Source of the DNA: Mitsuokella multacida DSM 20544
GTDB lineage: Bacteria > Bacillota > Negativicutes > Selenomonadales > Selenomonadaceae
Assembly: GCF_000155955.1 (NCBI RefSeq)
Contig: NZ_GG697141.2
Coordinates: 399,984-442,064, forward strand
DNA: 42,081 nt
Direction of reading: 5' to 3'
Part shown: piece after piece, positions 5,345-30,973 of the stretch
How the letters are laid out: every line of letters begins with the position of its first letter
Numbering within the stretch: position 1 is the first letter of the stretch
Position numbers and translations under genes: made by a program
The notes under the pieces: generated by a model
Told to the model about the DNA's origin: nothing
What the model saw: only the letters and a program-made list of their open reading frames with translations
Database searches by the model: none

Positions 5345-5497
5345 AACAGGTCCCCGAACCTGACTTTGTCCCAGGGAATCACTCCCCCGCTTTCGTCAGG
5401 CCCTCTCGACTGGGACGGCCGGAAGGCATCCGCTGACGTCTCGACAACCTTCTCCTCGTTCTCCCCGATTGGCAAAACCTCCGGGGAACTAGCGCTA
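5345..5497 (-). ncRNA. glmS ribozyme-riboswitch
   Basis: This self-cleaving riboswitch senses glucosamine-6-phosphate, and cleavage destabilises glmS mRNA. The minus strand has the expected cleavage site A|GCGC (between 5496 and 5495), a P2 stem CCCCG/CGGGG, the core ACGAGGAGAAGG-TTGTCGA, and CAGCGGATGCCTTCCGG, close to the family core (ACGAGG...TCGA...GGCGGATGCCTCCCGG). Downstream, GTCCCAG/CTGGGAC and CCTGAC/GTCAGG can form the P3 and P4 stems, with GACGAAAGCGGGG between. It ends about 30 bases before the start codon. Exact ends are approximate. Confidence 0.92.
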
Positions 5498-5580
5498 AGA
5501 ATTGCTTCTTTTCTATAACAATCCTGCTGCATCTTTATGATTTTCTCCAGAAACGCCCAAGGCGATTCTGATACGATGTT

Positions 5581-27135: not shown

Positions 27136-28692
27136 TCAGACAATCTTCGTCGACCAGCTCTCGATATTCCAGACCGTGTCGACGAGGTCTTCATAGAAGT
27201 CGGGCTCATGCGAGACGAGCAGCAGTGTGCCCTTGTACTCCTGCAGGGCGCGCTTGAGCTCCTTCTTGGCTTCGACATCGAGGTGGTTCGTCGGCTCGTC
27301 GAGCACGAGCAGATTGACCGGCTTCTGCATGATCTTAGCGAGGCGGACCTTTGCCGCCTCGCCGCCCGAGAGCGCTGTCATCTTCGTCGTGATGTGCTCA
27401 TTCGTCAGGCCGCACGAAGCAAGCGCCGCGCGCACTTCGAAGTTCGTCATGCCCGGATAGGCCTGCCAGAGCTCGTCGAGCGCCGTGTTCATATTGCCCT
27501 TGGCCTCCTCCTGCTCGAAGTAGCCAACCGAGACGAACTCGCCCTGCTCGATTGCACCCGAGAACGGCTTGATGAGACCGAGCAAGGTCTTTAAGAGCGT
27601 CGACTTGCCGAGGCCGTTCGTGCCGCGGATCGCGATCTTCTTGTTGCGCTCGACCTTGATGTCGACGGGCTTCGTCAGCGGCGTGTCGTAGCCGAGCACG
27701 AGGCGCTGCGCTTCGATGACGAAGCGTGAGGGCGTGCGGTCGGACTGGAAGTGGAAGTGCGGTTTCGGCTTCTCCTGGCGCTTCGTCAGGACCTCCATCT
27801 TGTCGAGCTTCTTCTGGCGGCTATTGGCCATGCCGCGCGTCGCGACGCGCGCCTTGTTGCGCTGGATGAAGTCCTGCTCGCGCTTGATCTCCGCCTGCTG
27901 GCGCTCGTAGGCCGCCTCTTCCTGGCGGCGCTTCAAAGCAGCCATCTCCTCGAACTTCTCGTAGCTGCCCGTGTAGCGCGTGAGCTTGAGGTTGTCGACA
28001 TGCCAGATGACATTCGTCACCGCATTGAGGAACGGCACATCGTGCGAGATGACGATGAAGGCATTCTCGTAATTCGTCAGGTAATTCTTGAGCCACTCGA
28101 TGTGCTCGGCGTCGAGGTAGTTCGTCGGCTCGTCGAGCAACAGGATTTCAGGGTTCTCGAGCAGGAGCTTCGTCAAGAGGACCTTCGTGCGCTGGCCGCC
28201 CGAGAGCTCGTCGACCTTGCGCTCGAGCCCGATGTCGCGCAGGCCGAGGCCGCCCGCGACCTCCTCGATGCGCGCATCGATCGTGTAGTAGCTGCCCGCC
28301 TCGAGGATGTCCTGGATGTCGCCGACATCCTTCATGAGCTTGTCCATCTCCTCAGGCGAGGCCTCGCCCATCTTGTCGTAGGCCGCGAGCATCTCCTGCT
28401 CGAGCGTCACGAGGTGGTCAAACGCCGTGCGCAGCGTCTCCCGGATCGTCATGCCCGGCTGCAGCACCGCATGCTGGTCGAGATAGCCGACCTTCGTGCG
28501 CTTCGCCCAGGTCACCTGCCCCGCATCCGGCGTCAGCTTGCCCGTGATGATCGACATGAACGTCGACTTGCCCTCGCCGTTCGCACCGACCAGCGCCACA
28601 TGCTCCCCCTTCAGCAGGCGGAACGACACATCCTCAAAGATCTCCCGCCCGCCATAGCTGTGCGAAAGATGCGAAACCTCCAATACGCTCAT
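27136..28692 (-). CDS. ABC-F family ATPase (ribosome-associated)
   Basis: A 518-residue soluble tandem ATPase without membrane segments, a class that binds the ribosomal E site to regulate translation or confer antibiotic protection. Domain 1 has Walker A GANGEGKST (near 36-44), signature LSGGQRTK and Walker B LLLDEPTNYLD. A charged coiled linker (about 240-310) includes the P-site tRNA interaction motif region. Domain 2 has GTNGLGKST, LSGGEAAKV and LLVLDEPTNHLD. Sequence and length are closest to YkpA/YbiT-like housekeeping members. The gene starts 17 bases after the tRNA-Pro terminator hairpin, so its promoter must be at or above the tRNA gene. Confidence 0.93.
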   Translation of the reverse strand: MSVLEVSHLSHSYGGREIFEDVSFRLLKGEHVALVGANGEGKSTFMSIITGKLTPDAGQVTWAKRTKVGYLDQHAVLQPGMTIRETLRTAFDHLVTLEQEMLAAYDKMGEASPEEMDKLMKDVGDIQDILEAGSYYTIDARIEEVAGGLGLRDIGLERKVDELSGGQRTKVLLTKLLLENPEILLLDEPTNYLDAEHIEWLKNYLTNYENAFIVISHDVPFLNAVTNVIWHVDNLKLTRYTGSYEKFEEMAALKRRQEEAAYERQQAEIKREQDFIQRNKARVATRGMANSRQKKLDKMEVLTKRQEKPKPHFHFQSDRTPSRFVIEAQRLVLGYDTPLTKPVDIKVERNKKIAIRGTNGLGKSTLLKTLLGLIKPFSGAIEQGEFVSVGYFEQEEAKGNMNTALDELWQAYPGMTNFEVRAALASCGLTNEHITTKMTALSGGEAAKVRLAKIMQKPVNLLVLDEPTNHLDVEAKKELKRALQEYKGTLLLVSHEPDFYEDLVDTVWNIESWSTKIV

Positions 28693-28708
28693 ATCATGCT
28701 CCTTTACA

Positions 28709-28737
28709 TAAAAAAACCTCCTGCTTTCACAGAAGGT
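28709..28737 (-). promoter_or_regulatory. Terminator hairpin between tRNA-Pro and the ABC-F gene
   Basis: On the minus strand ACCTTCTG pairs with GCAGGAGGT (one mismatch) around a short loop, followed by seven T residues. It ends tRNA-Pro transcripts, but the AAAGGAG ribosome site of the ABC-F gene begins about five bases later, leaving no room for a promoter, so ABC-F mRNA should arise by read-through. Confidence 0.8.
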
Positions 28738-28752
28738 CTATTTTCAGAAAAA

Positions 28753-28829
28753 TGGTCGGAACGACGGGATTTGAACCCACGACCTCTTCCACCCCAAGGA
28801 AGCGCGCTACCAAACTGCGCTACGTCCCG
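28753..28829 (-). tRNA. tRNA-Pro (anticodon GGG)
   Basis: 77 bases folding as a full cloverleaf: acceptor CGGGACG/CGTTCCG, D-stem GCGC/GCGC, anticodon stem CTTCC/GGAAG with loop TTGGGGT (anticodon GGG, decoding CCC/CCU), and T-stem GTGGG/CCCGT with TTCAAAT. The 3' CCA is encoded. A near-consensus promoter precedes it and a terminator follows. Confidence 0.97.
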
Positions 28830-28841
28830 ACGACAAGTTAT

Positions 28842-28870
28842 ATTATACGATAGAATCGCCGTCTTGTAAA
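28842..28870 (-). promoter_or_regulatory. tRNA-Pro promoter
   Basis: TTTACA (28870-28865), a 17-base spacer and TATAAT (28847-28842) on the minus strand, 13 bases before the mature tRNA 5' end. Confidence 0.85.
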
Positions 28871-28889: not shown

Positions 28890-29522
28890 TCAGATGAAGT
28901 ACTCGATCGTGTCCTGAGCGGTCTTCTTAGTGTGCTCGTTGAAGAGCAGGACGGCTTCGCGGTCTTCGATGGGGCCGAGGGCGTAGGGGGCATTCTCCTC
29001 GCGGTTGAAGCACGCGGCGGGCACGATGCGGTTATACGCCTTGGGGTGCTGCAGGGTCAGCTCGATGCCGGTGCCTTGGAATTCATCGGACTCCTCGGGC
29101 ACGTACCACGGGTCAAACATCAGGATGCTGCCGTCCGCCGTCTCGCCCGTCAGCAGGGCGTAGTGCTCGACGTCGTAGAACAGGCGCACGACGGCGACAC
29201 CGCCGCGGTGCAGGGCATCGTTGATGAAGCTCTCCTGCCCAATGTAGACGGACTTGCCCGCGAGGTACTGGCTCGAGAGCGGCAGGTTCGTCGCGCGGCC
29301 GAAGCCGTCGAGCCAGTTCGAGAGAAACATCATCGCCATGCGGCTCGTACCCGCGCGCCCCGGCTCGCCCTTCTGGCTGTAGCAGTCTAGGCTGTAGAGC
29401 ATGACGTTGCGGATGATCTCCGGCGGGATTTCCTCGCGCTCAAAGAGATAGCTGACTGCATTGAGCATCGTCGTCGGACCGCAGTCATACTCCGAGAACT
29501 GATAGCGCAAAGGGCTCTTCAT
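28890..29522 (-). CDS. C39-like cysteine peptidase family protein
   Basis: A 210-residue protein with EYDCGPTTMLNAV near the N-terminus (catalytic Cys14 region) and VEHYALLTG (His) followed by a FDPW motif, the Cys-His-Asp set of papain-like C39/C39_2 folds. No signal peptide or membrane segment is visible, so it may act in the cytosol. Its substrate is unknown; C39 domains cut double-glycine leaders when fused to ABC exporters, but this one stands alone. It lies 35 bases downstream of the NlpC/P60 gene, in one operon, which suggests a cell-wall or peptide-processing role. GGAGAG lies before the ATG. Confidence 0.8.
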   Translation of the reverse strand: MKSPLRYQFSEYDCGPTTMLNAVSYLFEREEIPPEIIRNVMLYSLDCYSQKGEPGRAGTSRMAMMFLSNWLDGFGRATNLPLSSQYLAGKSVYIGQESFINDALHRGGVAVVRLFYDVEHYALLTGETADGSILMFDPWYVPEESDEFQGTGIELTLQHPKAYNRIVPAACFNREENAPYALGPIEDREAVLLFNEHTKKTAQDTIEYFI

Positions 29523-29557: not shown

Positions 29558-30898
29558 TCAGCGCAGCGAGCCGAGGTAATGCACGCCGTTGATGTACGGC
29601 ACGCCGCTGAAATTGAGGAACGTCGCCGTCGACGCGATGACCTTGCGCAGGTAATGCTTGCCGTAGTCGCTGCCAAAGCTGAACCAACTGCTCATCGACT
29701 GCAGGACAATCGGCGTACCATCATCATCCTGGCCGAGGTACATCATGACATGCGTGTTGTTGGCGAGCAGGGTGCCCGGCATGCACGCCTCCAGTGCGGC
29801 CAGCCGGTCCGCCTCGCCCATGCCCGAGAGGTCGACGACCTTCGGCATCGACTTGGCCTGCTGATCCGCATCGCGCGGCAGCTCGATGCCCATGCTGCGG
29901 TAGACGTCGCCGACGAACGAGGAGCAGTCGACGCTGTCGTCGAGGCCACCCCAGCCGTACTCATCGCCGAGGAAGCGGAAGCCCTGGCGCACGAAATTGT
30001 TCTCGGTGCAGGGCAGGAAGCCCTCGTGCAGGGTATCATCAAAGGCAGCGGGACGCTTGACGATCTTCAGCGCGCCGTTATCGCTGACCGGCATCAGCAG
30101 CACCTTTGCCCCATTCGCACCTGCGGCGAGCGGGATCTTGGCGCCCATCTGGAAGAGCAGCGACTCCCCTGCCCCATTCGCGATTGTCGTCTTGTTGGCC
30201 GTGACGACAGCGAAGTCAGTCGGATGGACGAAGCCTTCCCAGGTCGTGCGGTCGGTCTCGGCAAAGTCGGACTTCGCGATCCAACCGTCATAAAAGCGCG
30301 TGCGGACGAAGGCGAACTTCTTGTCGTAGCTGTCACCGAGCACGGCCACCGGCTCGGCCGGGTCGAGGGCCGTCGCCTGCAAGGTGTCATAGTGCACGTC
30401 GCCTGCGCTCTCAAACCAGCCGGCTGCCTCCGGCAGCAGGCGCAGGTTGGCGCGTCGCGTGACGACGCCGTAGCGCACCGTCACCGTCTCGGGAAGTGCC
30501 GCGATATTACAGTTCTTGCGCGCAAACGAGTAGCTGTAGGCCGTCAGCGCGCTGCCTTTCTTGTAGAGGTCTGGCTGCGAAGCCGTATCAAAGTCGCCGA
30601 TGGCCTGGACCTTCTCGATGCGCTCTTGCACCTCGGCGCCGGAGACCGACTCCGGCATCGTGCTAAGGTCCGTCAACGTATCGTTGCGGCGGCGGAGCGA
30701 TTCATTCGTCGCTTCGACCTGCGAAGGCGTCAAGAGGACCGTGTCGCCCTGCGGGTTGCGCTGCGTCCAGTAGACAGCCGTCGCGCGCGCGTCCGTGATT
30801 TCTGGCGAGGCCTCCGCCAGCACCGTGCCCGTCAACAAGACGGCCAGCAGGAAGACGGTCGGCAGGAGGCGTTTCAGGATAACTGTCATCGAATCCAT
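29558..30898 (-). CDS. Secreted SH3 and NlpC/P60 (C40) peptidoglycan hydrolase
   Basis: A 446-residue exported cell-wall endopeptidase. A signal peptide covers about 1-30 (basic start, VFLLAVLLTGTVLAEA), followed by a helical stabilising region (about 55-115), SH3-like domains (about 130-280, with RRANLRLLPEA) and the NlpC/P60 domain (about 295-446) with catalytic Cys325 in DSVDCSSFVGD and His383 in NNTHVMMYLG. Members cut the gamma-D-Glu-diaminoacid bond of stem peptides. ATG at 30898 or 30889 could start it; the ribosome site favours neither clearly. A promoter lies at 30945-30973, divergent from the phosphatase gene. Confidence 0.9.
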   Translation of the reverse strand: MDSMTVILKRLLPTVFLLAVLLTGTVLAEASPEITDARATAVYWTQRNPQGDTVLLTPSQVEATNESLRRRNDTLTDLSTMPESVSGAEVQERIEKVQAIGDFDTASQPDLYKKGSALTAYSYSFARKNCNIAALPETVTVRYGVVTRRANLRLLPEAAGWFESAGDVHYDTLQATALDPAEPVAVLGDSYDKKFAFVRTRFYDGWIAKSDFAETDRTTWEGFVHPTDFAVVTANKTTIANGAGESLLFQMGAKIPLAAGANGAKVLLMPVSDNGALKIVKRPAAFDDTLHEGFLPCTENNFVRQGFRFLGDEYGWGGLDDSVDCSSFVGDVYRSMGIELPRDADQQAKSMPKVVDLSGMGEADRLAALEACMPGTLLANNTHVMMYLGQDDDGTPIVLQSMSSWFSFGSDYGKHYLRKVIASTATFLNFSGVPYINGVHYLGSLR

Positions 30899-30944: not shown

Positions 30945-30973
30945 ATTATAGCGCAGAGCTATGCCGCTGTCAT
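30945..30973 (-). promoter_or_regulatory. Promoter of the NlpC/P60-C39 operon
   Basis: ATGACA (30973-30968), a 17-base spacer and TATAAT (30950-30945) on the minus strand, about 45 bases before the start codon. Its -35 abuts the tandem repeats shared with the divergent phosphatase promoter. Confidence 0.8.

Follow-up and report, generated by a model that had tools for sequence, protein, structure and literature searches.

A probable leaky transcription unit of tRNA-Pro(GGG) and an ABC-F ATPase gene in Mitsuokella multacida, and the same layout behind other tRNAs

The tRNA-tufB operon of E. coli is a bacterial unit in which tRNA and mRNA are co-transcribed, and the rplL-rpoB region of the same organism contains a leaky terminator, or attenuator, inside an operon. 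The locus described here lies in a 42,081-nucleotide stretch of Mitsuokella multacida DNA (hereafter the window), in a genome of 2.58 Mb. It resembles tRNA-tufB in that a tRNA promoter would serve a downstream gene for a translation protein, in this case an ABC-F ATPase; it differs in that a full intrinsic terminator stands between the tRNA and the gene, which polymerase would presumably have to read through. As at rplL-rpoB, the output of the downstream gene would be governed by partial read-through; the difference is that the upstream product here is a tRNA. A literature search returned nothing on a tRNA-terminator-gene arrangement, which is no proof of its absence from print, and a search for transcript mapping in Selenomonas ruminantium likewise returned nothing.

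Read along its minus strand, the window has in turn a 210-amino acid ORF (ending at 28890), a promoter-like site, tRNA-Pro(GGG), a hairpin with a T-run, an AAGGAG, and the ATG of the ABC-F gene. The promoter-like site at 28842–28870 is near-consensus (TTTACA, 17-base spacer, TATAAT; 11 of 12 matches), and the tRNA, with its CCA encoded, occupies 28753–28829 according to ARAGORN (Rfam, 62.5 bits at 28829–28756). A terminator scan and a fold of the junction place an intrinsic terminator stem-loop of 11 pairs with a loop of 4 at 28714–28739; the seven T of its T-run, at 28710–28716, overlap the stem, whose end the scan sets at 28714. The AAGGAG, read directly as the ribosome binding site of the ABC-F gene, is at 28699–28704, and the gene itself (27136–28692; protein P0001, 518 amino acids) begins with the ATG at 28692, a start that is backed by close relatives aligning from residue 1. 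Five bases (28709–28705) separate the end of the T-run from the AAGGAG, a position and distance that the sequence-only reading had given correctly, and 17 bases separate the T-run from the ABC-F start, too few to hold a promoter plus leader. The space between terminator and ribosome site is too small for a promoter of the usual kind, so transcription of the ABC-F gene should begin at the tRNA promoter or at one further upstream. A scan for sigma-70-like sites gives the picture expected of tRNA-mRNA read-through, i.e. a promoter ahead of the tRNA and none in the gap. An AGGAGG also lies in the 3' arm of the terminator hairpin, seven bases ahead of an ATG-TAA start-stop (region 28722–28704). The tRNA-Pro(GGG) gene (compared at L111 and in the window) exists in two T-arm versions within otherwise identical or near-identical genes of related genomes, as in the window and genome G040.

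Our reading, at a probability of roughly 70%, is that the ABC-F gene belongs with tRNA-Pro(GGG) to a single leaky transcription unit, with read-through past the terminator and no proline-specific signal, as judged from the DNA of this locus and its relatives. The near-consensus promoter would drive the tRNA, most polymerases would stop at the intrinsic terminator, and a fraction would read through to yield a tRNA-hairpin-ABC-F transcript; because the terminators look strong, that fraction may be very low. After tRNA processing the ABC-F mRNA would still carry the terminator hairpin close to its 5' end, and the outcome would be low, steady ABC-F expression tied to tRNA transcription and probably coupled to growth rate.

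By itself the lenient terminator scan is weak, with 4 sites found in the 42-kb window versus 2.5 ± 1.3 in shuffled sequences. Under a stricter definition (stems of 8 pairs or more and 6 T in 8) five terminator sites, with 7 T-run ends between them, are found in the window, and the tRNA-Pro terminator is the only one with an SD-led ORF of at least 150 amino acids within 24 bases; such an ORF is 93–123 bases off in three of the others, and one has none within 140 bases. Elsewhere in the window Rfam identifies a minus-strand glmS ribozyme (5346–5507, 72.8 bits).

The 518-amino acid protein is an ABC-F ATPase, with PF00005 in two stretches together with PF12848, and scores 414.1 bits against NF000355 (cut-off 380). 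Against the Uup/YfmR model NF050005 (cut-off 900) it scores 312.5 bits, less than the three other ABC-F paralogues of the genome; the highest score, that of L004, is 483.2 and likewise below the cut-off. Nor does the window protein reach the cut-off of the EttA, PRK15064, or PRK10636 model, the last two of which represent YbiT and YheS, respectively. Identity to Bacillus proteins is 61.6% over 518 positions (L067) and 60.5% over 517 (L089), and these two proteins score far lower against the genome's other three ABC-Fs. The L067 gene adjoins a DEAD-box helicase gene, a neighbourhood that resembles yfmL-yfmM of B. subtilis; the neighbours of L089 differ. We take both Bacillus proteins to be probable YfmM, and by model scores and paralogue comparison the window protein looks YfmM-like. 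The YfmM subfamily is one of housekeeping ABC-F ATPases (PMC6723617 and PMC11381351). The window protein is alike in sequence to these proteins and different in its tRNA-Pro(GGG) neighbour, which among the loci read occurs only in Selenomonas-like genera.

An ABC-F match at E ≤ 1e-130 is present in 62 of 189 genomes of the family, and the closest named relatives of the protein are from Selenomonas. The 61 ABC-F loci that we read comprise the window and the upstream DNA of 60 of the other 61 genomes (G125 was left out), with up to 1 kb taken per locus and less where contigs end. tRNA-Pro(GGG) stands within 105 bases of the ABC-F gene in 24 of the 61; by genus the adjacency is 2/3 in g1, 2/2 in g2, 15/22 in g21, and 5/7 in g23, together 24 of 34 genomes of four genera, versus 0/27 in eight other genera. 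The tRNA is 369 bases away in G161 and 835 bases away in G160, and in 35 of the 61 loci the DNA covered shows no copy of it. Among 80 named loci, the tRNA is within 800 bases of ABC-F in 12, all titled Selenomonas or Mitsuokella. The sequence-only reading had held that a pair not conserved in the family would count against it, and on this point the synteny survey cuts both ways: adjacency is found in 24 loci, and the rest are non-adjacent.

Four genomes (G156, G158, G162, and G173) have tRNA-Pro(GGG) on the same contig, 1.3–5.3 kb upstream of ABC-F; the intervening DNA (L205–L208) gives the 3' side of the tRNA the look of an insertion site. In G041, from the window's genus and with a protein 95% identical, the tRNA sits on another contig than ABC-F. 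The G160 locus (L130) has an ORF, J-domain-protein-like by eye, between the tRNA terminator and ABC-F; it starts about 34 bases after the T-run, so it would stand behind that same terminator.

The hairpin is present in all 24 adjacent junctions (window included; 19 distinct sequences), with stems that differ between species. A tRNA promoter-like site with 17-base spacing and a -10 of 5/6 or 6/6 precedes the tRNA in 23 of 23 adjacent cases with readable upstream DNA, the contig of the 24th, G003, beginning at the tRNA. The gap from T-run to start is at most 36 bases in 15 of the 24, a count that leaves out G171, in which the script picked a weak hairpin and the true hairpin is about 45 bases off. 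Gaps were scanned for sigma-70-like sites only, requiring a -10 hexamer of at least 5/6 with A second and T sixth and a start point 12 or more bases ahead of the gene; no such hexamer is found in 20 of the 24 (G171 is counted among these by eye, with TATGTT, 4/6, and TG ahead, its scanned gap having been mis-set). The four gaps with a good -10 have TGnTATAAT (G174, G175, and G176) or TAAAAT with a poor -35 (G151), so an ABC-F gene of this kind can have its own promoter. The sequence-only reading had the ABC-F gene transcribed only through the tRNA-Pro terminator; the missing promoter space in the window's gap upholds the core of this, and the TGnTATAAT of G174–G176 tells against the "only". 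At non-adjacent loci a -10 of at least 5/6 occurs within 150 bases in 17 of 37, versus 4 of 24 in the shorter adjacent gaps, figures that are counts and not a test because the zones differ in length. G156 and G173, with the tRNA 1.3 and 3.2 kb away, have a TATAAT promoter-like site before ABC-F (TTGTGA-16-TATAAT in G156); G158, G160, and G162, which also have DNA between tRNA and ABC-F, show no good -10 near the gene in the sigma-70-like scan, so promoter absence is not peculiar to adjacency.

The host genome has 75 tRNA matches, grouped into 35 units, and the 34 units besides the window's were read for co-directional downstream genes. Behind tRNA-Leu(TAG) the distance from the T-run to the start of a TrkH gene (PF02386, L184) is 16 bases; the corresponding distance is 19 bases for a TauE gene (PF01925, L200) behind tRNA-Glu(CTC), 24 bases for the gene of a NiaR-like repressor (L180) behind tRNA-Val(TAC), 35 bases for Lipase_3 (L197) behind tRNA-Leu(GAG), and 36 bases for GDT1 (L176) behind tRNA-Phe(GAA). 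The L200 hairpin, which the terminator routine missed, was read by eye and has a loop of nine. With the window included, the gap is at most 24 bases in 4 of the 35 units and at most 36 in 6 (7 with the upstream start of L193, which was left out for its two possible starts, with gaps of 36 and 54); in many of the remaining units the gap is longer, and by eye some of these gaps contain promoter-like sequence. We surveyed three of these genes in 31 genomes, the host's own included. The NiaR-like gene is present in 17, and in 6 of these a tRNA lies no more than 110 bases away, at T-run gaps of 24–31; the nearest tRNA is Val (4), Lys (1), or Glu (1), and three of the six belong to genera other than the window's. 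TauE is present in 14 (one locus had only 3 bases upstream), with tRNA-Glu within 110 bases in 6 of the 14 at gaps of 19–54, three of the six again from other genera. TrkH is present in 5, with tRNA-Leu in 3, all of the window's genus, at gaps of 16 and 18 and, in one, without a T-run. Since the layout recurs with unrelated proteins behind other tRNAs, it looks like a general arrangement rather than a special proline circuit.

Promoters ahead of the tRNA might supply most of the ABC-F mRNA, the tRNA then being part of a longer operon that includes the minus-strand ORFs at 28890–29522 and 29558–30898, an explanation we consider unlikely. The first of these ORFs, for which no NCBIfam or Pfam match was found at E ≤ 0.001, ends 19 bases before the -35 hexamer of the tRNA on the same strand, and the terminator scan finds no terminator-like site on the minus strand between its end and the tRNA promoter, so transcripts from further upstream could contribute; a promoter-like site, ATGACA-17-TATAAT, is available for them at 30973–30945. 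Such transcripts must still pass the tRNA terminator, however, and neither ORF was found by tblastn (1e-10) in the 80 named loci, some of which have less than 3 kb upstream; that the ORFs did not turn up in loci of which 12 keep tRNA and ABC-F together favours the tRNA promoter as the source. We regard as improbable a promoter of the ABC-F gene itself, of a type outside the scan or overlapping the hairpin, that would start the transcript at or inside the ribosome site. The restriction of the scan to sigma-70-like sites and the clear promoter-like site in the gap of G174–G176 speak for it, but a start after the window hairpin would abut or cut into the AAGGAG, and gaps this short recur (17 bases in G000, 17 in G040, and 14 in G170).

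The sequence-only reading had also suggested that the link between a proline tRNA and a ribosome-acting ATPase may be meaningful. In its regulated form, a change in proline tRNA level or translation stress would alter read-through and with it the ABC-F level, which we hold to be highly improbable. Such an attenuator is consistent with the adjacency, hairpin included, being kept in four genera. PMC11381351 reports that the B. subtilis ABC-F protein YfmR cooperates with EF-P, that the efp yfmR defect was unaffected by induced YfmM overexpression and partly suppressed by leaky expression, and that stalling on Asp-Pro repeats was modest when yfmR, ykpA, and yfmM were all lost. YfmM may have a weak connection to proline, with nothing here tying the YfmM-like protein to tRNA-Pro(GGG). 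Against regulation, minimum-energy folds of the 19 distinct junctions have the terminator hairpin in common but no further element, Rfam at gathering thresholds finds just the tRNA at the junction, and the TauE, TrkH, and NiaR-like genes have the same layout behind Glu, Leu, and Val tRNAs. The ABC-F gene has 16 Pro codons, of which 3 are CCC and 2 CCT, and no Pro-Pro. Nor do the presence profiles go together: over the 189 genomes both ABC-F and tRNA-Pro(GGG) are found in 43, the gene only in 19, the tRNA only in 117, and neither in 10 (odds ratio 0.19, p = 1.5e-4, counted by hand and uncorrected for kinship), which gives no sign of mutual dependence. The tRNA was called by a loose pattern in 160 of the 189, and some tRNAs may have escaped this pattern or be missing from incomplete genomes; a strict pattern, which matched in 50 of the 189 and had suggested that tRNA and gene go together, was rejected because it missed most tRNAs. 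Genus g3 alone supplies 13 of the 19 gene-only genomes. The loose pattern is missing in 14 of 16 g3 genomes versus 15 of 173 in other genera, and ABC-F is present in 15 of the 16. On the layout behind other tRNAs, the presence profiles, the YfmM-like rather than YfmR character of the protein, and the Pro codons, we do not retain the suggested functional tie.

Two leader mechanisms were considered and set aside. Leader-peptide attenuation as in resistance ABC-F genes finds no place, as the tRNA fills the leader and there is no conserved leader-peptide ORF ahead of the terminator; the sole candidate is the ATG-TAA start-stop (28709–28704), which comes after the hairpin and is common to G040 and not to the other 22 adjacent junctions. 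As to a T-box or riboswitch leader, Rfam at gathering thresholds finds only 16S rRNA, the glmS ribozyme, and this tRNA in the window.

A leaky unit of tRNA-Pro(GGG) and ABC-F thus remains our preferred reading, and a tRNA beside a translation-factor gene need not mean function, as transporters and a repressor share the layout. The part that deserves attention is the recurring tRNA-terminator-gene layout in the family. We suggest tentatively, and with more doubt than belief, that in Selenomonas-like bacteria the tRNA-terminator leak might be a general low-dose expression device for promoterless, unrelated genes, with dose and growth-rate control coming from an exchangeable upstream tRNA (the NiaR-like gene follows a Val, a Lys, or a Glu tRNA in different genomes); the candidate set would be ABC-F, the NiaR-like repressor, TauE, and TrkH, and perhaps GDT1 and the lipase. 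If read-through is true, several genes of the family would stand under tRNA promoters, which would explain their missing promoters and would predict growth-rate control.
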